The notes beneath the pieces were generated by a model, which was given only the letters and a program-made list of their open reading frames with translations, ran no database searches and was not told where the DNA came from. A stretch of DNA of 64,000 nt from Anas platyrhynchos. Taxonomy: Eukaryota; Chordata; Aves; Anseriformes; Anatidae. The stretch spans positions 1,033,501 to 1,097,500 of the forward strand of contig NC_092603.1 in NCBI RefSeq assembly GCF_047663525.1. The letters run 5' to 3'. Shown in pieces: positions 530 through 47,598 of the stretch. The first letter of the stretch is position 1, and every line of letters starts with the position of its first letter. The translations under genes and the position numbers were made by a program.

Positions 530-614
530 ATGGAGGATGAGGATGGCTACATGGCCTTGGACAGGCGATGCAAGCGGGGTGCTGCGGAGAGGCCGGGACC
601 CCTCCGGGACGCAG
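530..614 (+). CDS. Gene A alternative first exon 1a: hemITAM cytoplasmic tail
   Basis: The 85-nt coding part starts at an ATG and ends at a CAG/GTAGCG donor in phase 1. It encodes a tail beginning [10 protein letters not shown]. This matches the hemITAM layout known from CLEC-2, Dectin-1, CLEC9A and NKp80: an acidic triplet directly before a single YxxL, which recruits Syk after receptor clustering. Joined to the TM exon at 3730 it stays in frame. The 5' flank has ETS-like GGAA cores (for example AGGAAG near 416), which is weak promoter evidence only. Confidence 0.8.
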
Positions 615-3600
615 GTAGCGGGGTCCGATCCTCCGTCCCACCATGGGTTTGTGGTGGCGAGAGCATACCCCGGGTGGCGATTGGTTGGCAGGGGGAAGAA
701 GCGGGGTGGTGCAGCTCTTGGGGTCCCAGAGAGTCACTCAAGCTGGGGAAACTGTGAGGTGGCTTACCGGGGATGCTTGCCTTTGATAAACTCGGTATTA
801 TGGAACAAAAATGGTTTTGCACCAGAACTGGGAACAAGGGCAAGCAGAGGAAATGCCAGAGAGGTGGTTCCATCGGTCTGTGAGGGCTGGAGATGGATGA
901 AGTGTGAGAAAAGAGAGAGAAAGGAAGCATTTTTGGGACCTCTGCTCTATGGAACCCGCTTGCACGGCAAAGTGCTTGGCAGTGCACACCCATTGTCTAG
1001 AATCATAACATTGGTCAGTGGTACACCACAGGAGGTAAATTTATGTAGTAGCACACTTCAGGGGAATAGGAGAAATGGGAAATAAGGGTCCCAGGGGAAA
1101 AGGGGATGTCCCTGGGACAGTGCATACTGAGAGTCCTTTAGGAAGAATGCTAAGGAATCGGTTGCAGCAAGGTTTGTAGCTCTGGGGGAGCATGGGAGGA
1201 TGGGGAGAGCATGCAGGGCTGATGCGTGTCTTTTGAAGGCACCTGCACTTGTTTGAGGACTTCCAGATGGATTTAGAGGTGGCTGCATGGTAAAATTCAG
1301 AGTCTCTCCTCCCCCCACCCAAAAAAACTGGCCAGTGCTCATCCCACCAATGCCCCACCAGAGCCAGATCTTGCTTTCCCCCAGCATTACCCCATTTATA
1401 TTGTTTTTCTTCATCTCTTGGAGGAACTTCTTCAAACAGGAAGTTCTTGTAAACAGGCTATCCAAAATAAATGTCTTGCAATTAAATTTTCTGGATGCAG
1501 ATTTTTACCAAAATATGTATATATATATAATTTTTTTAAGTTTTGCAAGCTATGGTCAGGATGGAGGCAGAGCCTTTTGAAGCCTTTTTTTTTTAATTAC
1601 TGGTGGTGGTGGTGGTGTGGTTTTTTTTTGACACCTTTTTTTTGATACCGTGAAGGAAGAGAAATGTAAAAGCGGGCCTGCCTCTGCTCACCACAGAAAA
1701 TAGAGTACAAAACTTTCCATGAGGTCAATGAGAGCTGAAGGCAGAGTAACAACGAACAGCAAATTGGACTGGTGGTGCTTTTTCCCCAGTCCTAGGAAGT
1801 GCCAGCTGCTCCATGCAGCAGAGACTAGGTCAAGCTGGCATGAAAAAATTAAATTAAACATCAAGATAATGCATATTTATTTTGCTGCAGAAAATAAGCA
1901 AGGAAAAAAACCCTCTTTGCCTCTTCTGGTGCAAAAGTTACAGGATAAATTACTTGGCGTGGAAGAAAAAGCAACAAATTGCAATCAAAACCATCCCCTT
2001 CCAGCTTTTGGGTTACACACAACTGATGCCCAAGCCGTATTCCAGGGAAGACACACCAAATACCACCTTTCTCCTCCTTCCCCGACTATCTGCTGGTACG
2101 AATTGGCCTGACCCCCATTAATAAATACATATATTATTTAAGGGCTTTTATTTTGTCTTTTGTCACCTCTCTGCTCTCCTGGCAGCTCAGCACCGCAGTG
2201 CTTGCTGTGGTCGCTAAAGACAAAAGGTGTTTTCTGCACCTCGAGAGGTGCGACCTCCTCCTGCCTTGAGGATGTCTGCCTACCTGCCATCCTTCGACTG
2301 AAAGGGACCACCATCCCTGGAGGTCTTTAAAGAGGTTTAAAGATGTTGAGCTTAGGGATATGGTTTAGTGAAGGACTTTTTAGTTTTAGGTCAGAGGTTG
2401 GACTAGGTGATCTGGAAGGTCTCTTCCAACCTAGATGATTCTGTGAAAGGAAAGTCTGTAGCATATATCTATGAACCTATAAAAGAAAAAAAAAAAAAAA
2501 AAAAACACAAACAAAACAAACAAAAAAAAAAACACACACACACACACACAAAAAAAAAAAACAAAAAAAAACAAAAAAAAACAAAAAAAAACACACAACA
2601 AAGAAGAAGACTAAATAAAGCCATTTCCTGGTGCTGGACGCAGGCGCAAGAAGGTTCAAGAAGGTTGGTCATAATGCAAAGGTTGCCCGGGGACGTTGTC
2701 ACTCCTGGGACGCTTCTGCAGGCGGGCGAGCTGACCATGGCTGGGGAAATTATGTACGCTGATTTAAGGCAGCCCGGAGGGGGCTCTTCACCTGTTGAGA
2801 GGCGTCACAGTAAGTGCAATTTTGGGTGGTGGGCGCTCACGGTGAGCTTCATTTCCCCCAGGAAGAGCTGGCGCTTTGGTCCGCTTGCATCTTGGCCAAG
2901 AAACATGGCCAAGTGCCAGTTGGGTTGCGGTGTTGATCCCGGTTTGTGCAGGCAGTGAAAGGAAGGAAGGAAAGAAGGAAGGACGGGGGAGAAAGAAGCT
3001 TGCAAATGGCCAGAGCTTCAACGATTTCACTGCTGGGGCTGCTCTCTCTGCAGCAAAAATCAGCCCTAACGCAAGCCGTTGGAAGTCAAAGCTTGGCGAA
3101 ACACGCCCAGGACCCTGGTGGAGAGGAGCTGTGGAGGGACCCGAGTCCCACCAGCTGCCACCTGTTCTAAATGAGGCCAATTTCCCAAGAGTTTGAGTCT
3201 GTCCCCCCTGCTCTTGAGGACCCCCACCGCCTCCCAGAGCACCTAGAGGTGACAGCCTCGCTTCCAAGCCCAACCTCAGCACCCAGCCTCCAACAGGAGC
3301 AAAGCCCACCACCAGGACTCCTTCCCCAGTGGAACCCACTGGTGCAACTGGGAAGCCGCAACCCAGCTGCTCCCCATCCCCTCCAAGCACCTGGAGGCTT
3401 TGCTCCAGCCAAAGCAGCACAACGGCGAGCAGTGGGACCCACGCGAGGAGGGTCCTGGGGTGGGAGATGCAGAGAGAAGGTTGTGATCGTTGGGTTTTCA
3501 CTTGTTTTTGTGTGATTGTGGAGGTAGCAAAGCAGCTGTCAACTTCTGCTCAAACATAGGGGCTCTCTTTTCTTTTCGTTTCATTTCTTTCTTTTCTTTT

Positions 3601-5944
3601 CTCATTATTTTATTACATTTTTATATTAATTTTATTGATTTATTTCATATTATTTCATTTTCACTTCATTGTATTTTAATTTTATTTTACAAGAAAGCAT
3701 TTTCTGAACAAAACCACGGACTCTTTCAGCTCCCGCCGTGTGCCCACGGTGGCACGGAGTCTTTCTGAAGCTGAGTGGGCTGGGCTACCTGGTGCTGCTG
3801 GTGCTGGTGGCGGTGCTCAGTGTGCAGGGTAAGTAAAACCCACTCGAAAACACATCTAAAACCCAAGCGATCACAAGGGAATGTGTACTTTGTTTGTTGT
3901 TTTTTTTTTTTTTCTTCGCCAAGGGGAGGACAGGGTTTTATCCCAGGAACCATGTAGATACCACGGGACGCATCCAGCAAGAGTAAATCCCCTCTCAAAA
4001 CAAACAAACAAACAAATAAAACAACAACAAAAACACAGAAAAACATACACACAAAAAAAAAGGCTTTTAAAGCAAGGGTGGTGGACACAAGCAACATTTT
4101 TATGCTTCTGCAAACGTTGGGTGCAATCATGACGAGAAAAAGAGTTTGCACAATAGATCTGGAAACCCAACTCAGCCCTGCTTGGTTTTCACGGTGAAGC
4201 ACACAAACAGCCTCAATCTCACCCCAAAATTTTACCTCCAAGTTTTTCAGAAGACGCCGACACCTCCCAACACTCTGCAGAACAAGAGTGAGGCCAGGGG
4301 AAGGAACAGGACGGAGGTGTGCATGGCTCCCTCCCTGCTGCGCTACTTCTGCCGCTGGAACAGCTCTGCAGGTAACCCCTTCCCCGGAGGGGTCCCTGTG
4401 GTGGGATGGGTGTCCCCGGGGGGCTGCAAGTCCAGCTTGGTGTCAATGAGCATGGTGAGGAAGAGCTCGTTTTGCTGATCATCTCCATCCTCTGTGGGCC
4501 TCCGGGAGGAGGAGGCACCTCTCCACCTTCCCCGTGCTCACCCCACCGTGTCCTCTTTGTGGTGGATGGGTGGGAAAAGCGGGCAGGAAAAATTTGGGAG
4601 GGGAGAGAGCTCCCTCCCCAGTGCCTCTTGGCTGGTTTGAGCGAGACCTCGAGCGCTTTTTGGGGTGTCTCATGGCTCCGTCTCCTCTCCAGGCCACGGG
4701 GGCTGCAAGCTGTGCCCCCAGTCTTGGCAGCTTTTGGGGGACCAGTGCTACCAGGTTTCCAAATCAATTGGGACTTGGATGGATGGCAAAAAAGACTGCG
4801 AAAGTCGGGGGTCCCATCTGGCCGTGCTCCGAAACACCGTCGATATGGTAAGTGCAGAGTGGAGAAGGCCTGAAAAAGATCCAAAAGTCCTTGGTTTTGG
4901 TGGGTAGAGGGGCAAAAACTGCCCCGGAGCTGCTGGTTGGTGGCAGGAGGCTTGGTAGCTCCAAGCAACCACCTGCTAAGAGGTGGAAAGAGGGCTGAAT
5001 CAGCACCAAAAGGGCTTTGGAGGCCCTTTCCCACCTTTGGCACGGAAGGAAAGAAGGACACAGAGCTCGGGGGGAGCCTCTGGTGTCTCAGGCTCTGAAT
5101 TTAAGCTCTTTCCACCCACTGAGTGAGGCAGCACCCAAGGCACAGGTCATGGTTAGGGCCCGTCTCTTTGAGGATGAACCAAACGGGTTCAAAAAGCCAG
5201 CTTTACACCCCAACAAGCCTCTTGCCCTGGAAGCCAACACTTCTCTCCCATTTCCCAGGAGCACTTACGTGAGATCATCCTCCAGGACAAGCTAACGGTG
5301 TGGATCGGATTAAAGGTATCCAACAACATATGGAAATGGGTGGACAACTCCTCCTTCGATGCCACCATGTGAGTACAGCTGCAACCCATGATGTGCAGAG
5401 CAGCTTTGCTCCATTTCAGCCCCAAGATCTCCAATATTTTGGTGTCCACAACAGTCTTGCAATGCCCTGGTAAGTCTTTGCAGCCTGAAAGTTGGCTGTA
5501 CTGAGCACTGTAACCCACCATCTCATCACACCTACGCAGCCAACGTGGTTTTAATGCCCTGGGCATGCTCCAGTGGAGGAAGGAGCCAGATGGTAGTGCA
5601 AGCACAGCAATCTGCACGCGCATCTGGGCAAGCCCGCAGCAAGAAGCCTCCTGGAGCCCAGTGAGACAGGCTGGGGGGAAGCTCCCATTGCCCCCTCTCC
5701 CAAGAGAGAAAGGAGCTGCTTTTGGGTGCTGATGGTTTTGGTTTGCAGGTTCCGTTCCCTTGGGAGTGTGGAGAACGGCTGCGTGACCTTCGTAGAGAAG
5801 GGGCTGGAAGACAATGGCTGTGGGAGCAAATACAAGTGGGTTTGCCAGACAGAACCCTTCCATCTCCTTTCAAAGACTGCAGGAGACAGAGACCTGTATG
5901 GTGCCCACCCTGAAAAGCCCATCCTGCAGGATGCTTGCTGCTAA
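530..5944 (+). CDS. Gene A: KLR-like C-type lectin-like receptor with alternative hemITAM or ITIM first exon
   Basis: Type II membrane receptor of the NK C-type lectin-like class. Exons by splice sites and phase: first exon 530-614 (hemITAM) or 2737-2809 (ITIM), transmembrane 3730-3828, stalk 4243-4371, CTLD1 4693-4847, CTLD2 5259-5368, CTLD3 5749-5944. The total is 774 or 762 nt, both divisible by three (257 or 253 aa). The TM exon encodes CPRWHG followed by an uncharged Leu/Val-rich helix. The CTLD shows CPQSW, QCYQVS, WIGL, KWVDNS, NGCVTF and KWVCQ, with no EPN or QPD calcium-site motif, so carbohydrate binding through calcium is unlikely. The stalk holds two cysteines that could dimerise the protein. 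The stalk acceptor at 4242 is chosen because it alone keeps the frame after a phase-1 donor; a CAG 8 bp further on would not. All exons are open. The gene converges on CLEC2-like gene E. Family membership is well supported; the ligand is inference. Confidence 0.85.
615..2736 (+). other. Gene A intron between alternative first exons
   Basis: No coding exon seen. The part at about 1040-1470 resembles the 5' flank of CLEC2-like gene E (9710-9880), so it may be an old duplicated promoter/first-exon region. The rest holds a CR1 3' end at about 2286-2455 and an A-rich and CA-rich tract at 2481-2610. The 59.4-62.0 kb part of gene C is the inverted duplicate of this intron. Confidence 0.6.
2286..2455 (+). 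mobile_element. CR1 LINE 3' end fragment
   Basis: Carries the usual CR1 3' UTR phrases (ACCATCCCTGGAGGTCTTTA, GGTTGGACTAGGTGATCTGG, TTCTGTGA) in the plus orientation. It lies between the hemITAM and ITIM first exons of gene A. Confidence 0.85.
2737..2809 (+). CDS. Gene A alternative first exon 1b: ITIM cytoplasmic tail
   Basis: The 73-nt coding part starts at ACCATGG, a strong start context, and ends at a GTAAGT donor in phase 1, the same phase as exon 1a. It encodes MAGEIMYADLRQP, a canonical ITIM (I-x-Y-x-x-L) of the kind that recruits SHP phosphatases. An acceptor-like CTTCTGCAG lies just upstream, but splicing exon 1a into it would hit a stop after about 14 codons. The exon is therefore best read as an alternative first exon and not as an internal exon. 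Confidence 0.8.
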
Positions 5945-8055: not shown

Positions 8056-9924
8056 GCGTCCAGAGGACGTAGTCATTGGGCCTGCTGCAGATCCAGTATT
8101 TCTCCGTGTGGCAGAGGGCTGAGCTGATCTCCTGGTTTAGGTACGCACAAGGGCCACCTCCCCACACCTCAAACCTGCAATGCAGACACACTCAGGAGTG
8201 AGCAGAAAAGGAAGTAGGAAAACTACCCTAAAAACGGGAAGAAAACCTGGGGTTTCCTCTCCTGGGAAGGTCAGAAGGGGCAGCATTCAAGGTTTAATAG
8301 GGGTTCAGAGCACAGCGTCCTTGGTCCGCACCAAGCCTCCCGTGGTGAACCAGTGGTGCGGTGGCAGGAGGAGGTCCCCATCCCAAAAGAGGCCATCCCA
8401 GATCCTATAAGAACTCCTGGCCTAATTGCCAACCCAAAGCACCCAACCCCAACATGCGGAGGGACTGACCAGTTGTTGAAGGCTGTGCCGTTGGTCCACC
8501 TCCACTGGCCGTTGACTTCCTCCTGCAGCCCGAACCAGTGGTTTCCTTGGCCCATGTATCGCTTGATGAAAGCCTTTAGAGAAGAAATAAAATAAAATAA
8601 ATAATAATCGGGTTTAAGCAATCCAGTCTTCCCAAAACAAAACTCAGCCAGGTTCTGCCTACAGCCTGCAGAGCACCCTGCAATAGGAAGGTGATTAGAT
8701 TCTACAATCCTTCAGTTTCACAGAAAAAGGAAGCCCCTTGAGGGCAAAGCTCAGGACAGCACCCATCTGGATGTAGGGACAGAGTTTTGGAGAAAATGTG
8801 ATATTGCTCATCCCCCAGCCCAGGATGGTACTTTCCCTGGGGCATCTTCTCCTGGCTTTGGCAGTGGGTGAAATTTGGGGGAAAATGGGTTTTTGGTCTG
8901 GTCCCACACATTTTCCACACCAGAGCGGGCACTGGGGCTCGTGCCCAGTTCTCACCAGTTCCTCCCAGCTGTCTATGGAGGTCAGGGAGGCTTCCATGGC
9001 CTTGCAGTTCTCCAAGCTGGTATTCCAGTTGCTTTCATTGTCCGAGAAATAGTAGCACTTGCTTTGGAAGCCGATCCACATGTCTGGGCACATGTGGGAG
9101 AATTGGGGATGTGATGAGCAAGACTGCAGACGCACAACTGTAAAAGGGGAAAACCGAGCAGGTGAGATGCATGGACAGCCACCAAAAAAAAAAAAAAAAA
9201 AAAGGCAAAAAAATAACATTTTTTTTAGTTATATGTATTCCCCTCCAGCAAGCGTAGGGGGGTTGGGATGCAGCAAGATGGGGCACCCGCTAGGAAAGGC
9301 TGAGTAGAACCTGGCTGAGGGGACAAAAGCGGGTGCTTCATGAAACAGACTCAGTGCTATGCTTGGAGGGCTTCTCATCCTGCTGGGAAAACCCTGGAAT
9401 TCCCCACTCCATCCCTGAAACAGGTTCCTGGCCCATCTCCCTGCCGTGGGGATGCTCCAGTGGGACTCACCAACCAAGGCCACCAGCGGAACAAGGACAA
9501 GGACACTCAGCACCACACACAGAGGAGCCAGGAGCTTTTGTACACGACAACATTTCTTTTCCATCCCATGGGGGCTGGAGTCTGGTGGAGAAGAGAGCAG
9601 GAGATGTGGGCTGGGTCTTTCCACCCCCCATTTGCCCTTTTTCTGCTGGATCCATGGTTGATCCTATAGCCCTCCCCCTTGGGATAGGAGCTCCCTTCTT
9701 TGAGGCCCTGCAGGTGGATTAAGAGGTGGCTACATGATAAAATTCAGAGTCTGTCCTCACCCACCAAAACACCCTGGCTGGTGCCCATCCCACCAGTGCC
9801 CCACTGGAGCCAGATCTCGCTTTCCCCCAGCATTACCCCATTTGCATTGTTTTTCTGCATCTCTTGGAGGGTTCAGCACTTCTTCTTGGTTGGGGTGATT
9901 TTTTTCTTGGGCTCCTTTCCCCAT
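7931..9924 (-). CDS. Gene E: CLEC2/CD69-like C-type lectin-like protein, damaged
   Basis: Type II protein of the CLEC2 class, whose mammalian members act as ligands of NKR-P1-type receptors. Exons (minus): 9924-9861, 9581-9471 (TM), 9137-8956 (CTLD1), 8573-8470 (CTLD2), 8174-7931 (CTLD3), giving 234 aa. Visible motifs are the TM helix LLAPLCVVLSVLVLVPLVAL, MWIGFQSKCYYFS, NHWFGL, GQWRWTNGTAF, CAYLNQEIS and YWICSRP. Two faults are seen against the twin E'. The first-exon donor reads GAG/ATGCAG where E' has GAG/GTGAAG. A CR1 insertion also cuts the last exon after YVLW and adds a 42-residue tail read from antisense CR1. The CTLD cysteines are all kept. A conserved Met in the TM exon (GMEKKCC) could serve as start if exon 1 is not spliced. 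It may be a pseudogene or encode an altered protein. Confidence 0.75.
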
Positions 9925-12964: not shown

Positions 12965-14190
12965 GTGTCAGGAAGTTGGTTGATATTAATAAAGAAGGGG
13001 GAGATGTGGAGTGTGGCCATGGTGGTCAGAAAGCCCCGTGACTGATAATAACATCAAACTCTTAAGGATGAGGCCATCAGGAATATAAAAGAGTTTAGAG
13101 GGAACAAAGAAGGGTGATTCAGGAGACTCCATGCAGTCTCTGGTTTCTTCTTCTCCAGCTGGTCTCTTGTTCTCCAACCATTAAGGCATGGAAGATTCTG
13201 GGTGTTTGCTGTTGTTAAATGCAAAATTGTTTGACCAATGAAAAGTTGTTTTTGAAAAGAACTGCTGTGGAGACAAAGGTATAAGAGGGGAGCCTGTCCT
13301 CAAGATGAAAAAGGCAACGCGATGTGATGAAGTTATGTCATCAGTAAAGAAGCAGAAAGGAGGAGTGAAAAGGAGCAGGCTAGTAGAATGGAGACCAGGA
13401 CGGGAACAGGCACATTGATTGCCTCATGAAGATAGGTTCGGCCAAACTCAGCAAACTGCTCAGAGAAACTGTACGATTGTTAAGAAGTTTATGAGCCTGA
13501 AATATGGGGCCAAATTGAGGTCAAAGTGTGGGACTCTGCAACTAAAAACTACAAGGTTGCGGTGAGATTGCTGGGCACCTGGCGAGCAATCTCTGAGGCC
13601 ATAAAGAGCCGTGTGGAGCCAAAGTCATAAAAGTATGGTTTGCCAGACAGTGAGGGAGCTGCGGGCTCCTTTACTGATCCGACTGCTACGCCATCAGCCC
13701 CTCTGCTGCTACAGCCATCGAAGGCTTTTGCTGTTCTGCTCCCTGTTGACCTAACGTGCCTTTTGATCCAGGCCCTATTGACCTTCAAAAGGAGATGGGA
13801 GATGGATATGCTTTTCTTCAATCCGGGAAGAACAGGATACATAAGGCTTGAAGACCGAGTTGCTTGACAACTTAAAGCGAGACATATTGTTCAAAAGGAA
13901 TGGAAAATGGAGACTTGTTAGTAATCAAGAAGAGGAATGGAAGATTGAGACTGTTAAGTCATGGAGCTTAAAGGATTGTTTGTTACCTTTTCTGATTGCA
14001 CATATGTATAGGTGTACTCGGGTTTAGTATGTAAAAGCAATGTTCTGTATATTTGGAACATTTGATGTTCGTGTGTGCGTGTTGGTGGAGTGTAGACTCC
14101 CCGCACACCCAGCCCTGTTTACTTGCCTTTTATAAATAATTTTTTATAAACATTACGAAATTCAAATTGAGTTGTATCTTCATTTATAAC
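12965..14190 (+). mobile_element. LTR-like family 1 element (near complete)
   Basis: Homologous to 26726-28153, from GTTGATATTAATAAAG to TTCATTTATAACA. Some internal sequence is missing, around the segment that in the other copy lies at 27250-27400. It is followed directly by an inverted fragment of the same family (14191-14380), so this is another tail-to-tail arrangement. Confidence 0.8.
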
Positions 14191-19110: not shown

Positions 19111-22100
19111 ACCATCTGGGCAGCAAAGAGATAAATGACGGGGATTTCCACAGCACTGAGCAAGATGACCCAGGCATTTTGTGGAAATTCAGTGGGAAGG
19201 AGGCGGAGCAAGCGGCTGTGTGCATTTGTGCACCCGTGGCTGCTCTCCTCATCCCGGACACCCTTTGGCATTGCAAATTGCTCCCTAAAGTCCCCCAAAA
19301 TGTATTATTATTTTTTTCCCCAGGCATGTCCCAGCACCCCTGTGGTTAAAGGCGGCTGTGCTGCTGTCACCGACCTCCTCCCAGTCTCAGCTGTGATTGC
19401 TCAGAGCATCCAGAAGAAGTTCTTCCCATGACAGCAGGGTGTAGCTTGTCATAAAACAATTCCCGGTTGTTTTGTCCCAGGAAATTATGTCATGCTGCGT
19501 TGTTCATTATTCCTAATCTCTCTTCTCCCTGCTTCCTCCAATGCTGTGTGAGTAGGGGTGTTACCAGAGCTGTGCATCAGCCTTTGGTGTGCTGAGAAAC
19601 GTTTTTTTTTTCTCCTTTTAAATACTGCCCCTTGCTCTAGCCACTCCCCTTGTTAATAAAATATTGAGGAGGAGTGGCCAAAAAATAAAAATACAAAGAG
19701 AAGCGCACATTTCCATTAGAAACCTGCCCGTTTGCTAAAACACATATTTTCTCCCAGACAAAGCTGTGGGCAGCTCTTGGAGACAAAGGAGCTCTGCAGA
19801 GCATGCAGCACACAACAAGAAGGCATTGGAAGCTCTCCATCAAATGCCATATATTCAGGCCATAGTTTCTGCTTTTAAACCAGCAGTAACCAGAGCACCA
19901 AATTCCTCTGCCGCCAAGGCAGGAGGTGTCTCTAGAAATTTGCTTTATGTTTTCACAGAATGACAGAATTGTAGGGGTTGGAAGGGACCTCAAGAAATCA
20001 TCAGGTCCAACCCCCATTTCCTTCAAAAACGACAAATTTTGCAAGAAAGCCATCTTTCAATTTTATTTTATTTTTTCCAATTTTATCTTTAAAGCTAGAG
20101 CAGCGTCTCTTCACACTTGGGTTTGAAAGAGCACCTTTAGGTTGGCCACAGACTGGTGAAAACATCACTTTTATGGAGAAAAAGGGTTTTTGAACGTGCT
20201 GGGTGGCAGCTTTAAAGCTGGTTTGCTCCTTGCAAGTGTAAATGAATTTTGCCTGTCTCAATTCCCCTACTCCCTGCCCTTTGCAAACCCAAAGCTCAAT
20301 TTTAATCCGCTCATTTTTGAAGTTTTCCAGAATTGGGACCCATGCCTGGAGGGAGCTTTGGCTCAGCTGGGGGGAAGCCTCTGTGATCCAGAGCAGGAGT
20401 AGTCATTGTGTGTTGCTCCCTCTACCGGAGAAAATAAGGTGATAATAATGTGTTTTGGGTTGGGAAAGGTTGTGTTTGAGGCGGTCGAATAAAAAGGGGG
20501 TTTATAGGTTAGTTTTGGGCAGCTCCAGCCCTAAAAGAGAGGGGGTGAAGCAGGAAAGATGGGACGGGCTACTGGGATGGACCAAGCTCTGGGTTTTGGG
20601 TGAAGGATGGAGTTTGGAAGAGGAATCTATTTAGAAAAAAAAAAAAATAAATCAAACACAGTGGATGCAAAATCATTTGAACCAAAATTTTGGGTGTTGA
20701 AAGGACACCTAAAAATCCCCAACATGAATTTGTACAAGACACAAAACGTAGACAAAGGACAATGGGATGGACGCATCCTTTCTGCCGTGCCCTGGGATCC
20801 CCATTTGGGGCTGTCTTTTAGAGAATGATGATTTCTCGTCTGCTTTATTTGACCAAAAAACAACCTGCAGAGCAAAGCCACATCCTCCAGTACCTCACAG
20901 AGCACGAGGGAGAGCAGAGCGCTGCTGCTGCAGGAGGAAACCTCAGGGCTTCAGTTGTTTTCCCCAGCCTAAGAGGGGACAAGAAGGGTCTGGGGGATCC
21001 GTGCCACGATGATTGGAGCCGTCACCTCGTTGGCATTGGTTGGTGTGTGAAGGTGTTTTGGATTTTGGGATGGGCTGCAGGAAAAGTGGGAAAAGTTGCA
21101 GGTTTTTCACCTATTTCTTCCCTTGGAGCATTTCTTCAGCTGGTTCACCACCACCAACCACAGAGTCTTGTGCAACCCCTTCTCCACAAAAACCTTCTCT
21201 CAGTCATTAATTCCACGAAATTTTGTCCTCTCCACCCCAAACAGAGGAGACGTTTCCACCACTTTGCTCTGCAACCCTTGTACTCTTTGCTCTGGGGTAT
21301 AGAGGCTGCGATGTGAGCTCAGATATCTCAAACCTGAATTTAGTTGATAAATGCAGCAAGGTTCGTTGACGAAATCATTACATCCAACCTTCTTAATGAG
21401 GTGGCTCTTCTGTGCCCGTATTCCCAAGAATTTTGGCGGAGAAATTTATGGAAAATGGAAATTTTGCGCCTCTAAAGCCTCAGCCATCTAAAGGAAGGGA
21501 GATGATGGGGGTGATGTTTGGGGTAAAGCATCTCCTCATGCTTGACCACGATTTGTGAGAATATAAATTAAAATAAAATAAATGAAGGTGCTAAACTATG
21601 GGGTGAAATGGAGCAAAAATAAATCAGAGGAAACAGGGATGCTAGGACTTAAAAACCAGAATCATAGAATATCCCTAGTTGGAAGGGGCCCATAAATTAA
21701 AATGAAAAATAAAAATAGGAAGGAAATTTCATCCTGGCGTGGACTTCTTGCTGCTGCAAATTTCTTGTGCATGAAAAGAAATTTGCCTGGGGGTTATTTA
21801 AAAGAGAAAGTGCAGAATCCAAGAGAAACCAAGAAAATTCAAAAGCTCAGAGGCAGGAAGGGCTGAAGACAGGGAGGTTTGGGGTTTGGTGGCTTAAAAA
21901 TTAAACGAAGACACAAAACATAACGAGGTGTTAATCTGTTAAATCTTGTCGTGGATGAGGTTCTGAAAAGGTGCTAAACCACCCGCTGCTGCTGTCAAGG
22001 GAACAGTTTTGCAGCACTTTTGCAAAAAATGTTAGGGAGGGAGCAGCCGTGCAGATTCTACCCTAAAATCTATTTCATTTTATTTATTTTTGCTAAAATC

Positions 22101-22712
22101 CCCATCCCTTATACCTGTCCCTGGCTTGCAGAGGTGCTGGAGGCAAAGGGGCTGAGCGCTGGTGGCTTCTGCTTCTTCTTCCCCCCTCCAAGGTTTTACC
22201 TTCACCTCCAAAGGTGGGAAAGGGAGAGGTACTGATTATTAAGTGGAATTTTGGGGATAATTGCGTGGAAAAGGGCTTTATGCTCCCCTCCCCAACTTGG
22301 TGCCAAGGTGCACAAACCTCTGTGCAAGAAGATAATTGCAATACAAACATGATAATAAATGAGATGAAAGCCCTGCCCTGACCCCGCTCTCCTGGAGAAG
22401 AAGGGGTTGCTATTGCTTTTTTAATGCTTTTGATTTTGATATTTCTTTTTGCTATATATATATATATTTTAAGTTTTATGCTAATTAAATAAAATGTCCT
22501 TCCCTTTGCACCTCTCAGAGGCTGCTTTGCTTTCGGAAACCGCTTTTTGTGGGCGGCCTCAGCAGGTTGGGGAGCAGAGGGCAGCAGGCGAGGCTCAGAC
22601 ACCCAGCGTCGCTTCACCCAGCTTTACCTCCAGAAAAAAAAATATAAAATAATAATAATTTCCTTTTTCTGCCCCTGCACCTGGCTCTGCTGCTCCCTGG
22701 GGACTGCTGGCG
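19111..22712. other. 5' region of gene D, duplicated in inverted form at 43.99-45.2 kb
   Basis: No exon supported. Blocks at 19310-19440, 20090-20170, 20280-20420 and 20680-20800 recur in reverse at 45060-45165, 44645-44745, 44400-44540 and 44010-44140. Short CR1 3' ends lie at about 19956-20025 and 21659-21700. The stretch nearest the start codon (22500-22712) is the likely promoter of D, but no core element is clear. Confidence 0.5.
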
Positions 22713-25700
22713 ATGGCGCTGACAACGGTTTACACCGACCTGGAGTTGCCACCGGGTCCCAGAGGCATCCCACAGCTCCCAAAGCCTCACGGTGAGTGGA
22801 TTTGCTTCGTACCCATGGGTGCAGGGGTCCCTCTGGGCTTTGGACCTGTATCTTTTGGGGGAGGTGGGCTGGACGCCCTACAAACGGTGCTGGTGCTGTC
22901 CCTGGTGCCACTCCGGAGCTGCTGGGCCCTAGAATGGGGCGGGGGAAACACAGGAAGAAGAAATTTTTTATTTTTTTTTTTTTTCTGGCCCAAATCCTCA
23001 TTTTCCTCGAGGATGTTTGCTGTCCACCTCCGCTACGGGGCAGAGCAGCTGCACGAGCAGATTTCTTTCCCCAAATCTCTCTGAAATGTGCTGCAAGGAG
23101 AATTTCCCCGAGGACACCGCTACCTGCAGAGCTTTTGCACGCTCCCCTTTCTCACCTCGCTCGAGGGCTTCTGCAAGCGGGCTGCAACCGAGCAGCAATT
23201 GTGGCTTTGAGCACCCCAAGGCTTCATTTTGGGCCCTTCCCTTGAGCCAGGACCCCCCCAAGCCCCCTCCCAGGTGCAGCATGGGGTGCAAGGAGCTGAG
23301 CTGCTGTTCATCACCTCGGCCAAGTGAGGGAGGCAGCTTGTGGGTGTTTTTTTTGCTTCTCAGCTCCCCTCCAAGATACCTTGCAGGATGCAGGGCGAGG
23401 GGGGGAGGGGGGACAGACGTGTCTGTCCCCATGACGTGGACACCAAACTGAAAGGGGTTAAAACAGGGAAGGGATGGTGACGTTGTGGGTTTCTCTCCCA
23501 ATACAGGTCCCGTTGCAGGTCACCGGTGGTACTGGGTGATAATGGGAACCGGATGGGTTGGGGCCGCCGTCCTGGCGGGCATCGTGGTGTGGCTGCTGCA
23601 GCGACACGGTGAGTGGCGGGGTGTCAGGGTGGGGGGACAACAAATCAAATCCCCCCCCACAAATGCCATGGCAGCTCTGTATTGCACCTGTATTTAGAGA
23701 ACATCTCCTGGACACACCAGGTTGTTTTTTTGTTTGTTTTTTTTTGTTTATTTATTTGTTTTGTGGGTTTGATGCCTGTGCTGCCACAAATCCCTGCTCC
23801 CTCTGGCAGCACCTTGCTCCATCCCACGCCGAGGGTGGCTCCGCACAAGGGTTTCACCCCACTGCTTGCATCCTGGGGTCAAACCCATCCCGCCCCCCCA
23901 ATTTCAGATGGAAACAGCCTCAATCCCACTGGCTCATGCTCCTGGGAACCCTGCCTGGGCAAGGACACCCCCAGCTCCAACTGCTCCCTGAACTACTTCC
24001 AGCTGGGGCTCAGAGAGCGGCTGTGCGAGGCCGAGAGCCACCAGGCACCAGGTAGCCCACGCTGTTACGGGGGTGTTGGCTTGCTTTGGGCCCCTCCACG
24101 CAGAAAATGGGGCCCAACGGCCAGGGAAAGCCCCCCTGGACTCCCCATCCTGCTGCTTTCCCTCCGCGTTGTCACCTTTATCCTTCCCCTCTCCATGCAC
24201 CCCTCTTTGTCCCTTCAACCTCTGCTCCTATCCCTCCAACCCCAGCTTTCCCCCCAGTTCTCATAAAGACTTTTATCCTAAAAAACAAAACAAAACAAAA
24301 CAAGGGGTTGAGAAAAGCTTGGGAGGGCCCTGGGGAGGGGTCTCCCAGCTTCGCCCCTTACCCAGCTCACGTCCCCAACCCCTGCCCCAGGTGCCGAGGG
24401 CTGCTGGCTCTGCCCTGCGGGCTGGCAGCCCTTTGCCACCAAATGCTACTGGGTTTCTGCAAAAACCCTGCCCTGGGAAGAGGCAGGAGGTGACTGCAAG
24501 GACAGGAGGGCAGAGCTGGTGGTGCTGAAGAGCATGGAGGAGAAGGTAAAAGACCAAAGAGAAAGCATCACGACCCCAATCAGATTTTTTTGCAGCTGAT
24601 GCTGCCTGCCCAAGTTGCAGAGACAATCGGATGTCAGGGAAAAATAAATAATAATAAAGAGGGGGGAATAATAATGATAAAATAATAAAATAATAATAGA
24701 AGGGGGAGAAAAGGAGGTGAAGGGGGGGGAAAAGAGGGAGGGGGAAGAAAAGGGAGAGAAGGGGGGAAGAAAAGGGAGAGAAAAAGAGGATAAGGGGGAA
24801 AGGGGGATAAGGTGGGAAAAAGAGGGAGAGTGGGGAAAAAGGATGGGGGGGGAAAATGGGGAGGAGGAGAAAACGGGGGAGAAGGGGTGAAAAGGAAGAG
24901 AAAGGGGGGGAAAAACAGGGAGATGGGGTCTGCTTCCTCCTCCCCTAGGACTTCATTGGGACCATGAGCAAAGAATTACCAGGGAGCTGGACGGGGCTCA
25001 GCACCATCCTGACTCACGGTGAGGAGTGGACGTGGATGGATGGATCCCCTTTGCAGGATGATTTGTGAGTTGTTCCCGAGCCCCATGCAAAAATCCCATC
25101 CCAGGAGAAATTTGGGTTGCTCACCCCCTTCCTTGACAGCAAACTCCCCCCAGAATCCTTCCAGAGCTGGTGGGGAGCAAATGAAATTTGGGCAATGCGG
25201 GCCCGCAGCCCCCAGCTGCTCGGCAAGGAGAGGAAGAAGTGATCAAAACATTTTTCCTACATATTTTCCCTGTAATTTCAGGCAGGGAAATTTCAACTGG
25301 TTAAAAAGGAGATGCCCCAGTCAGGGATATTTTGCAGCTGGGGTCCTCCTGTAGCCACATTGACTTTGATATCCAAAAAAAAAAAAAATAGAGCTTTTGG
25401 GAGAGATAAATATTTATTAACAAAGCTGAGGGTGGATGGGGAGGAGAAACAAGTGTGTTTTTTTTTTTGTTTGTTTTGGTTTGTTTCTTTTGTTTTGTTT
25501 TGTTTTGTTTTTTTAGTATTTTTTGTATTTTTGTTTTGGTTTGGTTTGTTTGTTTTTTTTGTGGGGCAAAAGCTGGAAAATTGCTTTCTCTGGAGAAATA
25601 GGAGGCAAACAGGGTGGTACACTCCAAGCTGAACGGCTGACTTGGTTAAACTTTTTTGGGGGGCTAAACAACCATCTGAAGAGATGAAATGTTGCTGCCG

Positions 25701-25885
25701 GAAGCAGCATCCAAGCGCTTTCTGTTGGGCTGACTAAAATCTTGCTTACGGTGCTCCCCAGGCTGCAGGTGTTTGGGGAAAGGAAGGCGAATGCCTGTGT
25801 GGCGATATCGAAGGGGCAGCTCCGCTCCCACTTGTGCAGCACGCCGTTGCATTGGATTTGCCAGAAAGAGGCCGCCAAGATTTAA
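22713..25885 (+). CDS. Gene D: KLR-like C-type lectin-like receptor with ITIM-like tail
   Basis: Six exons: 22713-22791, 23507-23608 (TM), 23908-24051 (stalk), 24391-24545 (CTLD1), 24949-25064 (CTLD2), 25762-25885 (CTLD3), totalling 239 aa with all phases matching (1,1,1,0,2). The tail begins MALTTVYTDLEL. Its tyrosine motif TVYTDL resembles an ITIM but has Thr where I, V, L or S is usual. The TM is GAAVLAGIVVWLL with a GTGW lead and no charged residue in the core. The stalk has four cysteines and two N-glycosylation sequons (SNCS, and GNSL followed by NPT). The CTLD shows CPAGW, KCYWVS, SWTGL in place of WIGL, EEWTWMDGS, NACVAIS and HWICQKE. It has no calcium-site motif. It converges on F, 501 bp from stop to stop. 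All exons are open and probably functional. Confidence 0.85.
24640..24930 (+). repeat. Polypurine tract in gene D intron 4
   Basis: About 290 bp, almost entirely A and G (runs such as GGGGGGGAAAAG), after an AATAATAAT tract. It lies between the CTLD1 and CTLD2 exons. The inverted copy is the polypyrimidine stretch at 43685-43985 in D'. Confidence 0.85.
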
Positions 25886-26247
25886 GCACAGCTTCAACTG
25901 AGGGAGCCACGACAAGGCACAAACGGGATGGGACACAGCACCGGGATGCCAAAAAGTTGCTCCAGAGCTTCGAGGCTGGTGGCTTCTCCCAGCTCTGCTT
26001 CGTTCTTCCACTTTCCCTTTCTCCTCCTATATCTGAATCCCACAAACAAGGGCATCAAGCCCTCAAGCTTCAGAGTGCTGGACAAATGTTTTTTCCAAAC
26101 CTTTTGGATATTCCCAAGTCTCTCTGCAACTGCTACAAAGACGCGAGTGGCTGAAGGATCCTTTTATCCCAGAGCTCCACGCTGTTGTTTCAAGGAGTTT
26201 CTACTTCTGCAAGCTGAAGTTAAAATAAATTAATACTTATTTTTTTA

Positions 26248-26287
26248 AATAAAGCACCGTCAGGAACCCTACACAAGGGGGTTTAAT
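26248..26287. terminator. Convergent poly(A) signals of genes D and F
   Basis: AATAAA at 26248-26253 serves D on the plus strand (about 360 nt after its stop). ATTAAA on the minus strand at 26287-26282 serves F (about 100 nt after its stop). The two signals are under 40 bp apart, so the transcripts would meet or overlap slightly. Confidence 0.65.
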
Positions 26288-26386
26288 GATAGCAGCTTTC
26301 TCTTCGTTATCTTCACGGTGTAAATTCGGAGGCGACTCCAGGATGCAGGAGGATGCTGCAGGGGGCCACTCAGGGCTCTCCTCCAA

Positions 26387-29300
26387 CTATGCTCCCCTGG
26401 GGCTCTGCAGGGGGTGGCTGCAGACTGAATACTTCTGCTGGGAGCACCAGTCACTGCTGACCCCAGCCAGGTTGATGTAGGCACATTGGCCATTGCCCTT
26501 GATATCGAACCTGCACAGAGTAGCAGAAGGAGAAGTCAAGGGGCTGAGCATCTCCCACATAAGCAAACGGTGCTGGAAGGAGGAGGAAGAATCCTTTCCA
26601 GCGGACAATGACCCCCATACAAAGCTAAATCTGCCCCCTTCCATGAAGGAAGAAATATTTTTGGTTGATTAATCCCATATGGGTTCATCCAGGGATGCCC
26701 TCTGCATCCACAAGCTGCTTCCCAGTGTTATATATGGAATGGTAATTCGTGTCGAGAAAATGGTTGATATTAATAAAGAAGGGGGAGATTTGAGAGTGTG
26801 GCCATGGGGGTCAGAAAGCCCTGTGGTTGAGATACCATTAGACTCTTAACGACGAGGCCATCAGGAATATAAAAAAGATTAGAGGGAACAAAGAAGGGTG
26901 ATTCAGGAGACTCCATGCAGTCTCTGGTTTCTTGTTCTCCAGATGGTCTCTTGTTCTCCAGTCATTAAGGCATGGATGTTTCTGGGTGTTTGCTGTTGTT
27001 GTTACATTCAAAGTTGTCTGACCAATGAAAAGTTGTTTTGAAAAGAACCGCTGTGGAGAGAAGGGTATAAGAGGGGAGCCTGTCCTCAAGATGAAAAAGG
27101 CAACACTATGTGATGAAGTTATGTCATCAATAAAGAAGCAGAAAGAAGGAATGAAAAGGAACAGGCTGGCAGAATGGAGACCAGTACAGGAACAGGCACA
27201 TTGATCGCCTCATGAAGATAGGTTCGACCAAACTTGGCAAACTGCTCAGAGAAGCTCGTACAGAAAGTCACTGGAAATGGGCGCACCGGAGCTGGGAAGA
27301 AGCTCAAGCTGACAGAAGCGGACCTGTGCACACAACTGCCCCTCGCTGGTCAGCAGTTGCGCGTTATGGGGAATCAACACCCTAAGGAACAAAGACTGTC
27401 CTGGTAACCTTAAAATCAGACAGTTTATGATCCTGAAACATGGGACCAAATTGAGGTCAAGGTGTGGGACTCTGCAACTAAAAGTGGCAAGGTTGCGGTG
27501 AGATTGCTGGGCACCTGGTGAGCAATCTCTGAGGCCTTAAAGAGCCATTTGGGGCCACAGTCAGAGACGTGTGGTTTGTCAGATAGTGAGGGAGCTGTGG
27601 GCTCCTTTACTGATCCGACTGCTACGCCATCAGCCCCTCTGCTGCTACAGCCATCGAAGGCTTTTGCTGTTCCGCCCCCTGTTGGCCTGAACGTGGCTTT
27701 TGACCCAGGCCTCATTGGCCTTGAAAAGGGAGATGGATATGCTTTTCTTCGATCCGGGAAGAACGGGATACATAAGGCCCAAAGGCCAAGTCACTTGACA
27801 ACTTAAAGCGAGACAGATTGTTGAAAAGGAATGGAAAATGGAGACTTGTTTGTAATCAATAAAAGGAATGGAAGATTGAGACTGTTAAGTCATGGATCTT
27901 AAAGGATTGTTTGTTACCTTTCCTGATTGTACGTATGTATAGGTGTACTCGGGTTTAGTATGTAAAAGCGATGTTCTGTATATTTAGAATGTTTGATGTT
28001 CGTGTGTGTGTGTTGGTGGAGCGTAGACTCCCCGCACACCCAGCCCTATTTACTTGCCTTTTATAGTTTTTATACCTTTTATAGCTTTTATACCTTCTAT
28101 AGATTTTAGAAATATTACAAAATTCAGATTGAGTTGAGACTTCATTTATAACATTAGTATTATAAATGAAGTCTCAACTCAATCTGAATTTAGTAATATT
28201 TATACTTATAAAAGGTATAAAAGGCAATTAAACAGCGCTGGGTGTGCGGGGAGTCTACGCTCCACCAACACACACACACGAACAGCAAACATTCTAAATA
28301 TACAGAACATCGCTTTTACATACTAAACCCGAGTACACCTATACATACGTACAATCAGGAAAGGTAACAAACAATCCTTTAAGATCCATGACTTAACAGT
28401 CTCAATCTTCCATTCCTTTTCTTGATTACAAACAAGTCTCCATTTTCCATTCCTTTTGAACAATATGTCTCTCTCCCAGTTGTCAAGCAACTCAGCCTTC
28501 AGGCCTTATGTATCCCATTCTTCCGGGATCGAAGAAAATCATACCCATCTCCTTTTCAAGCCAATGAGGCCTGGGTCAAAAGGCACGTCCAGGTCAGCAG
28601 GGGGCGTAACAGCAAAGGCCTGAGATGGCTGTAGCGGCAGAGGGGCCCATGGCGTGGCAGTCGGATCAGTAAAGGAGCCCACAGCTCCCTCACTATCTGG
28701 CAAACCACATGTTTGTGAATTGTGGATCCACATGGCTCTTTAAGGCCTCAGGGATTGCTCGCCAGGTGCCCAGCAATCTCACCGCAACCTTGTCGTTTTT
28801 AGTTGCAGAGTCCCACACCTTGACCTCAATTTGGTCCCATGTTTCAGGCTTATAAACTGTCCAATTGTTAATAAGGAGAATAAGCTGTAAGGTTACCAGG
28901 ACAGTCTTTGTTCCTTAGGGCGTTGATTCCCCATAACGCGCAACTGCTGACCAGCGAGGGGCAGTTGTGTGCACAGGTCCGCTTCTGTCAGCTTGAGCTT
29001 CTTCCCAGCTCCGGTGCGCCCATTTCCAGTGACTTTCTGTACGAGCTTCTCTGAGCAGTTTGCCAAGTTTGGTCGAACCTATCTTCATGAGGCGATCAAT
29101 GTGCCTGTTCCTGTACTGGTCTCCATTCTACTAGCCTGCTCCTTTTCACTCCTCCTTTCTGCTTCTTTATTGATGACATAACTTCATCACATCGTGTTGC
29201 CTTTTTCATCTTGAGGACAGGCTTCCCTCTTATACCCTTCTCTCCACAGCAGTTCTTTTCAAAACACCTTTTCATTGGTCAAACAACTTTGCATATATCA

Positions 29301-31457
29301 GCAGCAAACACCCAGAAACATCCATGCCTTAATGGCTGGAGAACAAGAAACCAGTTGGAGAACAAGAAACCAGAGACTGCATGGAGTCTCCTGAATCACC
29401 CTACTTTGTTCCCTCTAAACTCTTTTATATTCCTGATGGCCTCGTCGTTAAGAGTCTAATGGTATCTCAACCACAGGGCTTTCCAACCCCCATGACCACA
29501 CTCCCACATCTCCCCCTTCTTTATGAATATCAACCATTTTCTCGACACGAAGTACCACTCCATATGTAACACCAAGGACCAAGCATTAGAAGAAGGGGTG
29601 GTTAATTGCTCCCAGTCCATTACAAAATATGAGGAAAAGCAGCCATGACGTACAGGTTGTTGAAGAGAGACCCGTTACACCATCTCCAGGGGTTGGATCC
29701 CTCTCGATGCAGACCAACCCAGTAGTGCAAGGGACGTCCGTAGTGCAATAGGAAGTGCTGGAAAGCAAAGAAGAAATGTTGTGCCCATCTTCACCTTACA
29801 TCCTCCAAGGAACCCCACAGCTGCTTCCCAAAAAGCCACCCCAGCACCCGGCAAACCCCTCTTTTAACCAAGTCCTCCTGGCTGTCGATGGTGGCCAGCT
29901 GGGCTCCTAGGGAGAGGCAGAAGCTCTGGCTCTTGTTCCAGTTGGTCTCGTTCTGCACAAAGTAGAAGCATTTCTCCCTGAACCCGATGCCGTTTTCTGA
30001 GCAGGTGGGAAGGATGGGAGAGGGGCAGGATGGACATTTCCTGGCTGGAAATAAGCAGAAGGAAATCTGCTTATTTTAATCAGTGGTGATGATTTGTGAG
30101 ATCTAATCCCGTAAAAAACATGTTCATTTCCACTTCTCATTTTATTTTTGTTGTTTTCACCTTTCTGTTCAAAATATTCATTTTCAGTTCAAGAAGCCAT
30201 TTAGGGCTGAAATAAACACCTCCTTCCTCTCCATAAAGGTCTTTCTGCAGCTTCCTCCTGGAGCAGAGTGTTTTGAGGCAATTTTGGCCCCTTTACGGAC
30301 AAATTTTGCCCCCATCCAGGTTTTCCCGTGGCATCCCATGCCCAGCCCCTGCCCTATCCTCACCACTGGGTTTTCCAAAGGGGAGGAGAGGATTCTGGTA
30401 GGGCCACCTCCATCCTCTTACCCGCCAGGGCAATGACGGTGATCACCAACGCTGTCACGAGCACGGTGGCCCCGATGGGGATCAGTTTGTCCTTAAGGCA
30501 CTTGAGGCTAAAAGCTGGAGGGAGAACAAAGCAACGGAGCACAGAGGAGAGGCACGGTCAACAAACATGGGGTGCAAGTGCCTCCAAGAGCCCCCCGAGC
30601 TGCCCACTGCCCCTCTATTCCCCCCAGCACCTGAAAATACACCCAGAAAGTACATATCCGGGGGAAAAGGCTCAGTTCAGAGGCTGCCTTTGGCTTCTGA
30701 GGATTTTTAGGGCTGCCTGAGCTCATTGCATCACTTCCATCCCCTTCAAGCTTGGATATGAGCATTGCACCCACACCCACAGCTCACGCCATTCCATACC
30801 TCTCACAGCTTTCCCATCCTTACGCTCCTCTCCCCAGCTATTTTAATTAAATTAAATTATGCCCATGTAGCTCTAAGCTCTGCCATGACCTCCAGCAGCA
30901 CTGCGGCATCCCAAAAAAAGGACTGGTGCTTACTCGTCTCCGTTGCTCTTTGGCGTGGGGACATCATCACAGCAGTCGGGTCCTCACCTATAACAAAGCC
31001 AAGGGGCTGGTAAGGACGTGGAGGAGCCCCTCTGCCTCCTGCCTGGCCCCGTGAGCAGGATCAGGCCCCACACACCCCTCTGCACCCATTAGGGCCAGCC
31101 CGAGGGCTGCAGCAGCAGTTCATCCCCTTATTTTGGGGAAGATGGAAAGCAGACAGTGGTGGATGCATGGTTTCCACCTTCCTGCTTTGAAGGAGAACTC
31201 GAGCCCATTGTTTTTGAGCCAGGAAACCATTTCAGCACCTTCTGTTTGCCATGGGGAAGTGCGGTCTCGATAACTTCCCCATTTCTTCAACGTTTTTTGG
31301 CTCCAGCCCCCGCTCCACTTGACAGCCCACCAGAAGAACACACTATAGCAACATAACCCTAAAATCCAAACCACCCATCGCAGGCAGGGCAGCCCTTAAG
31401 ACCAGTAAGGAAAGAGCACGGGGGTTATTTACCTGCATCAGGAAGGGTTTCTGCCAT
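26387..31457 (-). CDS. Gene F: CLEC2/CD69-like C-type lectin-like protein
   Basis: Six exons on the minus strand: 31457-31433, 30987-30934, 30514-30422 (TM), 30044-29869 (CTLD1), 29757-29654 (CTLD2), 26510-26387 (CTLD3), giving 191 aa with phases 1,1,1,0,2. The tail (MAETLPDAGEDPT...) has no tyrosine motif, as expected for a CLEC2-type ligand. TM: LIPIGATVLVTALVITVIAL. The CTLD shows NGIGFREKCFYF, NETNWNKS, HYWVGL, PWRWCNGSLF, QCAYINLAG and YSVCSH. The CTLD1 donor is a weak GTTAAA and the CTLD2 donor is GTACGT, so splicing may be inefficient. The last intron is 3.1 kb because it holds the palindromic LTR pair. The gene converges on receptor gene D. Confidence 0.8.
26726..28153 (+). mobile_element. 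LTR-like family 1 element, left arm of a palindrome
   Basis: About 1.43 kb, starting TGTTATATATGG and ending TTTATAACA (TG...CA). Inside is a gag-like open stretch and short shards recognisable from a retroviral RT region (near 27855-27915: GTAATCAATAAAAGG, CTTAAAGGATTGTTTG). Its outer flank is CCCAG. Confidence 0.85.
28160..29571 (-). mobile_element. LTR-like family 1 element, right arm of a palindrome
   Basis: The inverted copy of the left arm over its full length with only scattered differences. It meets the left arm tail to tail across a few spacer bases at about 28154-28159. The outer end reads TAACA followed by CCAAG, one base different from the left flank CCCAG, a possible target duplication for the pair as one unit. 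Confidence 0.85.
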
Positions 31458-42061: not shown

Positions 42062-42330
42062 TTGGTATAAATGAAGTCTCAACTCAATCTGAATTAAAAA
42101 ATATTTATAAAAGGCAAGAAAAGAGCGCTGGGTGCATGCGGAGTCTATGCTCTACCAACATGTACACAAGAACATCAAACTTTCTAGATATACAGAACAT
42201 TGCTTTTACATACCAGACCCGAGTACGGCTATACATATGTACAATCAGAAAAGGTAACAAACAATCCTTTAAGTCTATTACTATCAACGCCCATGCTATT
42301 ACTATCGATGTCCATGACTGGGGAAGCATA
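42062..42330 (-). mobile_element. Inverted LTR-like family 1 tail with pol shard
   Basis: From TATAAATGAAGTCTCAACTC it matches the 28163-28400 copy. Its inner end again carries RT codons on the minus strand (MLPQSW, LIVIDLKDCL). It abuts the plus-strand pol fragment, another tail-to-tail join with the centre deleted. Confidence 0.75.
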
Positions 42331-42440
42331 GTTGGAGGAGAGCCCTGAGCTGCCCCCCTGCAGCATCCTCCTGCAACCTGAAGTCGCCTCCGAATTTTCG
42401 CCGTGAAGATGACTAAGAGAAAGATGCTACCATTAAACCC
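42325..42440 (+). pseudogene. F' remnant: 3' end of a CLEC2-like gene
   Basis: From GCATAGTTGGAGGAGAGCCC to ATTAAACCCCC it matches the reverse of F's stop codon and 3' UTR (26282-26390), including the ATTAAA signal at 42433-42438. No CTLD exon remains. The break lies at a short shared stretch (CCAACTATGC) between the F-type 3' end and the pol relic. Confidence 0.7.
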
Positions 42441-42838
42441 CCTTGTGTAGGGTTTGTGACGGTGCCTTATTTAAAGAAATAAGTATTAATTTATTTTAAC
42501 TTCAGCTTGCAGAAGTAGGAACTCCTCGAAAAAACAGCGTGGAGCTCTGGGACCAAAGGATCCTTCAACCACTCATGTCTTGCGGCAGTTGCAGAGAGAC
42601 TTGGGAATATCCAAAAGGTTTGGAAAAAAAATTTGTCCAGCACTCCAAAACTTAATCCTGAGGGCTTGGTGCCCTTGTTTGGAGATTTAAAATGTAGGAG
42701 GAGAAAGGGAAAGCGGAGGAACGAAGCAGAGCTGGGAGAAGCCACCAGCCTCAAAGCTCTGGAGCTGCTTTTTGGCATCCCGGTGCCGTGTCCCATCCCG
42801 TTTGTGCCTTGTCATGGCTCCCTCAGGCAAAGCTGTGC

Positions 42839-43679
42839 TTAAATCTTGGTGGCCTCTTTCTGGCATATCCAATGCAATGGCGTGCTGCACCTGTGGGAGC
42901 GGAGCTGCCCCTTCGATATCGCCACACAGGCATTCACCCTCCTTTCCCCCATCACCTGCAGCCTGGGGAGCACCGTAAGCAAGATTTTAGTCAGCACAAC
43001 AGGAAGCGCTTGGATGCTGCTTCCAGCAGAAACATTTCATCTCTTCAGATGTTTCCCCTCCCCCCAAAAAAACACCTTAAAACGAGTTAGTCATTCAGCT
43101 TGGAGCGTACCACCCCATTTGCCTCCTGTTTCTGCAAAGAAAGCAATTTTCCAGCTTCTGCCCCACAAAAAAAAAACCAGTCGTTTCTCCTTCCCCATAC
43201 ACCCTCTGCTTTGTTAATAAATATTTATCTCTCCCAAAAGCTCTATTTTTTTTTTTTGGATATCGGAGTCACTGTGGCTACAGCAGGACCCTAGCTGCAA
43301 AATATCCCGGATTGTGGCATCTCCTTTTTAATCAGTTGAAATTTCCCTGCCTGAAATTGCAGCGAAAATACGTAGGAAAAATGCTTTAACAACTTCCTCT
43401 CCTTGCCAAGCAGCTGGGGGCTGTGGGCCCACATTGCCCAAATTTCATTTGCTCCCCACCAGCTCAGGAAGGATTTTGGGGGGAGTTTGTTGTCAAGGAA
43501 GCGGGTGAGCAACTGAAATTTCTCCGGGATGGGGTTTTTGCACGAGGCTCAGGAACAACTCACAAATCATCCTGCAAAGGGGATCCATCCACCCATGTCC
43601 ACTCCTCGCCCTGAGTCAGGATGGTGCTGAGCCCCGTCCAGCTCCCTGGTATTTCTTTGCTCATGGCCCCAGTGAAGTC
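42839..43679 (-). pseudogene. D': truncated copy of KLR-like gene D
   Basis: Only CTLD2 (43679-43564, DFTGAMSKEIPGSWTGL...) and CTLD3 (42962-42839, ...NACVAISKGQLRSHRC to HWICQKEATKI stop) remain, both open and with splice sites. The tail, TM, stalk and CTLD1 exons are missing. Upstream, intron sequence jumps to material matching 20.8 kb of the D locus. The poly(A) hexamer of D (AATAAA) is AATAAG here. It is a pseudogene. Confidence 0.85.
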
Positions 43680-43684
43680 CTAGG

Positions 43685-43985: not shown

Positions 43986-43989
43986 TATT

Positions 43990-47593: not shown

Positions 47594-47598
47594 GTTTG

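Follow-up and report, generated by a model that had tools for sequence, protein, structure and literature searches.

The 64,000-nucleotide stretch of duck DNA analysed here (hereafter, the window) encodes three paralogous lectin-like receptors, genes A, B and C, which on balance we are inclined to read as hemITAM receptors with a decaying ITIM-encoding first exon that is intact only in gene A. Gene A is also the one paralogue of the three in which both motifs are retained, on two coding first exons that read into a single receptor body.

On the plus strand, the distal first exon of gene A (positions 530 to 614; 85 nt) encodes the hemITAM tail and ends in phase 1 at the donor CAG/GTAGCG, and the proximal first exon (2737 to 2809; 73 nt), encoding the ITIM tail MAGEIMYADLRQPGGGSSPVERRH, ends in phase 1 at the donor GTAAGT. 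Either exon reads in frame through the same five downstream exons: the transmembrane (TM) exon (3730 to 3828; CPRWH...LSVQ; preceded by AG, phase 1 to 1), the stalk exon (4243 to 4371) and, in our exon model, three exons of the C-type lectin-like domain (CTLD; 4693 to 4847, 5259 to 5368, and 5749 to 5944, the last including the stop codon). The products would comprise 257 amino acids with the hemITAM tail and 253 with the ITIM tail. All modelled introns of gene A start with GT and end with AG; the stalk acceptor ..CCAAG/ was picked by eye, because the nearby ..TTTCAG/ runs into a stop. As judged by eye, each ATG is preceded by a purine at -3 and followed by a G at +4. The exon structures of genes A, B and C are models predicted from genomic DNA, and within these models the initial annotation was right that gene A has a hemITAM and an ITIM exon, each with its own ATG and a phase 1 end and both in frame into one TM exon. 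Its further claim, that joining the two first exons to each other gives a quick stop, is borne out in gene A, where 530-614 joined to 2737-2809, the latter taken from its own ATG, reaches a stop 8 residues further on; in gene C, by contrast, no stop appears within the 60 residues printed, and the TM exon is entered in a different frame.

The predicted distal tail of gene A matches the pattern [DE]3-G-Y-x-x-[LI] with its tyrosine at residue 7. An acidic triad followed by GYxxL, with Tyr7, stands at the amino terminus in all three genes, and the hemITAM motif is identical across them; acidic triad and Tyr7 fit the hemITAM lectin-like receptors as described in the available portions of a published account (PMC3819593). 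The proximal tail of gene A reads MAGEIMYADL, in which IMYADL matches the ITIM pattern [ILVS]xYxx[ILV], the tyrosine again being residue 7. The TM core, taken as the 18 residues at the end of the TM exon, is free of charged residues in genes A and C, includes a single histidine in gene B, and is immediately preceded by a lysine. Given the uncharged core of genes A and C, coupling to a charged adaptor would not be expected for these two receptors, and whether they activate or inhibit should depend on the tail. On viral contigs, six stretches match the peptide pattern, none of which encodes a relative, and the hemITAM DNA pattern has no matches.

Pfam Lectin_C was assigned to genes A, B and C, and the best six of 171 PDB matches to the gene A body are KLRB1B, KLRB1A (two), KLRB1, KLRF2 and KLRF1; judged by its predicted protein, the gene A body is NKR-P1/KLRB1-like. 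NKR-P1 receptors are type II proteins in which single tail, TM and stalk exons are followed by a CTLD split over three exons, an architecture that gene A shares in our model. Linkage to a CLEC2-type gene, expected of an NKR-P1 locus, is present as well: gene D (minus strand, approximate span 8059 to 9663, exons partly modelled), a CLEC2-like (CLEC2D/CD69-like) gene, neighbours gene A and is convergent with it. The best PDB matches of the gene D CTLD pieces are CLEC2D and CD69, and a second copy of gene D lies within 52625-55415. The neighbourhood around gene A is thus of the NKR-P1/CLEC2 type. A more distant NK-receptor-like gene, gene E (22713 to 25885, plus strand), for which NKG2-D is the best PDB match, followed by KLRB1B and KLRF1, was modelled with a single, proximal first exon; this exon is separated from the TM exon by 0.7 kb and encodes the ITSM-like tail MALTTVYTDL (TVYTDL, tyrosine 7). 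Gene F (42320-44783, minus strand) is a shortened duplicate of the gene E region 20054-26397 (plus strand); the part that matches 20806-24655 of gene E, with the exons for tail, TM and the start of the CTLD, is gone from it, and gene F has the appearance of a pseudogene.

Gene C (62128-56011, minus strand) is laid out as gene A. Its hemITAM exon (62044 to 62128) is followed by a homologue of the ITIM exon (59299 to 59371), the only one found in the window, and, in the exon model, by TM, stalk and CTLD exons (58219-58121, 57706-57578, 57267-57113, 56697-56588 and 56206-56011). The proximal exon retains the ATG, the open frame, the tyrosine and the donor, but it reads IIYANS, with serine at Tyr+3, and fails the [ILVS]xYxx[ILV] test. 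Accordingly, of the claim that gene C shares the layout of gene A, the exon arrangement, ATG, open frame and donor stand and the ITIM does not. Gene C has, between its hemITAM and proximal exons, an intronic stretch (60726-61511) that is 97.8% identical to a retroelement end at 46185-46969 and has no counterpart in gene A.

Gene B (39620-36774, minus strand), which was absent from the initial annotation, combines a hemITAM exon (39536 to 39620) with a full five-exon body (TM, stalk and CTLD exons at 38979-38881, 38489-38361, 38040-37886, 37468-37350 and 36969-36774). The ITIM exon is absent, so that an ITIM exon common to all copies is ruled out. What gene B lacks is a segment of about 2.5 kb matching gene A from ~929 to ~3473, which contains the ITIM exon. 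A AGAGAGAA-like run, identified by eye, lies at each edge of the missing segment, which suggests a deletion in gene B via microhomology. The hemITAM exon of gene B stands 556 nt before the TM exon, with fitting phase and frame, and scans of this strand for hemITAM- and ITIM-type motifs revealed no further tail exon ahead of the TM exon. The donor of this hemITAM exon has changed from GT to AT, reading ATAGCG instead of GTAGCG; an in-frame phase 1 donor, CAG/GTTTGT, follows position 39503, 33 nt downstream of the mutated one, and from its sequence may rescue splicing of gene B.

The ITIM exon of gene A is unlikely to be a chance product. In 40 Markov-1 simulations, an exon combining an ATG, an ITIM and a phase 1 donor was expected 0.225 times per 64-kb strand (~0.0035 per kb); the two strands of the real window contain two such exons, at 2737 and at 39909, both on the plus strand. 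Nor does the hemITAM exon look like a copy of the ITIM exon, or either of them like a copy of the gene E tail, the DNA similarity being unconvincing throughout (best E 0.09).

The receptor bodies are identical at 192 of 229 positions between genes A and C, at 183/229 between A and B and at 180/229 between B and C. Between genes A and C, 429 of 4,479 non-exon positions differ, compared with 2 of 84 in the hemITAM exon (binomial P for 2 or fewer, 0.010; two-sided Fisher test against non-exon positions, p 0.022) and 10 of 72 in the ITIM exon, which is not below background (P for 10 or more, 0.15); these counts are small, and the two exons differ from each other in divergence (Fisher p 0.013). When genes A, B and C are aligned together, 3 of the 84 hemITAM exon columns vary, compared with 71 of the 455 columns flanking it (Fisher p 0.0017). 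In the ITIM exon, 7.5 of the 10 differences are nonsynonymous (dN 0.153, dS 0.155), a rate that belongs to the A/C pair rather than to gene A alone, and that leaves the Leu/Ser change unpolarised. It should also be borne in mind that 100-nt intron windows with only 2-3% A/C divergence are present (starting at 1172, 3122, 3622 and 3972), and gene conversion between copies could therefore mimic constraint on the hemITAM exon. The CTLD, with dN/dS of 0.90 (A/C), 1.24 (A/B) and 0.79 (B/C), appears to be a fast-changing ligand-binding part, the ratios between paralogues being near 1.

These patterns are best explained by a scenario in which genes A, B and C arose by duplication from a bird receptor of the NKR-P1 type (KLRB1/B-NK-like) located near CLEC2-like genes, and in which their common ancestor would already have possessed two coding first exons, a proximal one with the ITIM and a distal one with the hemITAM. 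The proximal position is the usual place of the tail exon in NKR-P1. We infer that the proximal ITIM exon is older than the hemITAM exon, because of the tail of gene E, the gene structure of mammalian receptors, and the ITIM of chicken BN-K as given in the available portions of PMC10845735. The hemITAM exon would be the tail under selection, yielding an activating receptor, and its phosphorylated Tyr7 would be predicted to recruit Syk; for genes A and C we propose this direct route because their TM core offers no charge for an adaptor. Freed from constraint, the ITIM exon would have gone from gene B and lost its motif in gene C, remaining intact in gene A, which may still yield a minor inhibitory isoform from a separate start site. 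So construed, the pattern looks more like a receptor shifting from brake to accelerator than like a proven two-way switch.

The decay of the ITIM exon may also be complete. It is possible, if rather doubtful, that this exon is a dead relic in every copy, gene A included, and that gene A is a plain hemITAM receptor whose ITIM has stayed intact through the shortness of the time elapsed. The ITIM is missing in two of the three paralogues, and the exon evolves at a neutral rate between A and C; against this, the ATG, ITIM and donor of gene A are all intact, and gene C, too, has kept its ATG, its tyrosine, its donor and an open frame. Our preferred reading overlaps with this one as well as with the one considered next, and the likelihoods we attach to the three accordingly do not sum to one.

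The initial annotation had proposed that first-exon or promoter choice makes gene A a receptor of switchable sign. Under such a model, two promoters or first-exon choices would equip a single receptor with a hemITAM that binds Syk or with an ITIM that binds phosphatases, which we consider rather unlikely from the sequence evidence, and we would be equally hesitant to suppose that a cell could thereby alter the meaning of one ligand. In its favour, each of the two gene A exons has an ATG, a phase, a motif, a donor and a frame that fit, with a purine at -3 and a G at +4 around the start codon, and an ITIM exon of this kind is improbable by chance in the Markov-1 simulations. On the other side, the ITIM is lacking in genes B and C and the ITIM exon is unconstrained in the A/C comparison. 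Close upstream of its ITIM exon, gene A also carries an insertion (~300 nt, 2305-2612, made up of what is presumably a CR1-like end and an A-rich run) that is missing from gene C, which makes the continuity of a promoter at this site uncertain. None of the sequence features described here speaks for a pair of promoters. What survives of the proposal is that gene A has mutually exclusive first exons with opposite motifs; the broken motif in C, the lost exon in B and the unconstrained exon between A and C tell against the switch. In a broader version, which we would put forward only tentatively, as somewhat improbable, gene A truly takes on either sign by first-exon choice, with one fixed lectin domain, and an ancestral gene with two tails, masked by the one-tail-per-gene view of bird NKRP1-like families, gave rise to activating-only receptors (B and C) and to others by loss of one exon.

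Several repeats lie in and around these loci. Copies of a dispersed repeat were found at 1-371, 12977-13314, 26726-27100 and 29200-29571; an end of this repeat lies ~160 nt upstream of the hemITAM ATG in genes A and C, and gene B is without it. The repeat could carry regulatory sequence. On the minus strand, 46274-49149 is a non-LTR retroelement, which we take to be of the CR1 type; its long open frames encode a reverse transcriptase domain and an endonuclease domain. An adjoining open frame of 364 amino acids (49137-50231, minus strand), with a weak, sub-threshold match to GDSL lipase (E 0.0009), is perhaps the first open frame of the same element. Positions 51495-51717 consist of perfect tandem repeats of a 34-nt unit.

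The roles of the two tails might alternatively be reversed, with the hemITAM exon unused and the ITIM exon serving as the working start of gene A. The hemITAM donor CAG/GTAGCG is the weakest of the six in gene A (55 versus 67 for the ITIM donor, on an approximate scale of base frequencies), is likewise weak in gene C, and is mutated in gene B. We nevertheless regard this reversal as decidedly improbable: the hemITAM coding sequence is conserved in three copies and that of the ITIM exon is not, motif scans of gene B for hemITAM- and ITIM-type tails gave no other tail exon upstream of its TM exon on the same strand, and a hem-ITAM occurs in seven duck NKRP1-like genes in the available portions of PMC10845735. 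It is scarcely credible that the distal exon is part of a different gene and is not joined to the TM exon at 3730, given that the junction suits both phase and reading frame in all three genes and that in gene B, where the ITIM exon is gone, the hemITAM exon lies 556 nt from the TM exon.

With both tail exons present in gene A, annotation that assigns one tail to each gene may overlook alternative tails. Sister copies in which one tail was lost by an apparent deletion or a point change would offer a concrete route from inhibitory to activating receptor with the ligand-binding domain unchanged. Should both tails of gene A be expressed, first-exon choice would amount to a sign switch.

Among the closest known systems is the duck MHC array, for which the available portions of the published account (PMC10845735) describe 17 NKRP1-like and 20 CLEC2-like genes, including nine adjacent pairs, with hem-ITAM tails in seven NKRP1-like genes, an ITIM or ITSM in four, a hem-ITAM-like tail in one and none in three. 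As in the window, receptors with hem-ITAM or ITIM/ITSM tails stand beside CLEC2-like genes in that array; in those portions, however, one tail type is assigned per gene and alternative first exons go unmentioned, whereas gene A has two. The chicken MHC contains a single B-NK, bearing an ITIM (PMC10845735), and the pairing of B-NK with B-lec resembles that of genes A and D in placing an NKR-P1-type receptor beside a CLEC2-type gene (PMC8813856, PMC5002281), although B-NK and B-lec are described as head-to-head (PMC5002281) and genes A and D are convergent. Human NKp80, NKp65 and CLEC-2 share with gene A an amino-terminal hemITAM with Tyr7 on a type II CTLD protein, and NKp80 and NKp65 are NKRP1-type receptors with CLEC2-type ligands; unlike for gene A, an alternative ITIM first exon is not described for them in the available portions of that account (PMC3819593). 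The corresponding portions of an account of the mouse Nkrp1-Clr cluster do not describe alternative tail exons, and a chicken MHCY paper makes no mention of the terms ITIM, ITAM, cytoplasmic or alternative.

Outside this family, CEACAM1 and the activating CEACAMs parallel genes A, B and C in that a shared binding part is joined to tail exons of one or the other sign, the paired receptors having arisen, according to the available accounts, through exon replacement and ITIM loss after duplication (PMC2832619, PMC5856374). CEACAMs are members of the Ig superfamily, and in the available portions of these accounts the opposite signs reside in separate genes (PMC2832619, PMC5856374), whereas gene A has both tails. 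NKp44 (PMC13072323) and mouse NKG2D-S/-L (PMC5852076) are examples of a single NK receptor whose isoforms signal differently: the mouse NKG2D isoforms differ in the adaptor, DAP10 or DAP12 (PMC5852076), and NKp44-1, with its ITIM-like tyrosine, is reported to be activating rather than inhibiting (PMC13072323), which cautions against inferring sign from a motif alone. Tails that differ between duck genes, exon replacement in CEACAMs and adaptor isoforms of NKG2D are thus already in print in these accounts. The openly accessible literature searched yielded, under the terms used, no description of alternative hemITAM and ITIM first exons in one lectin-like receptor.
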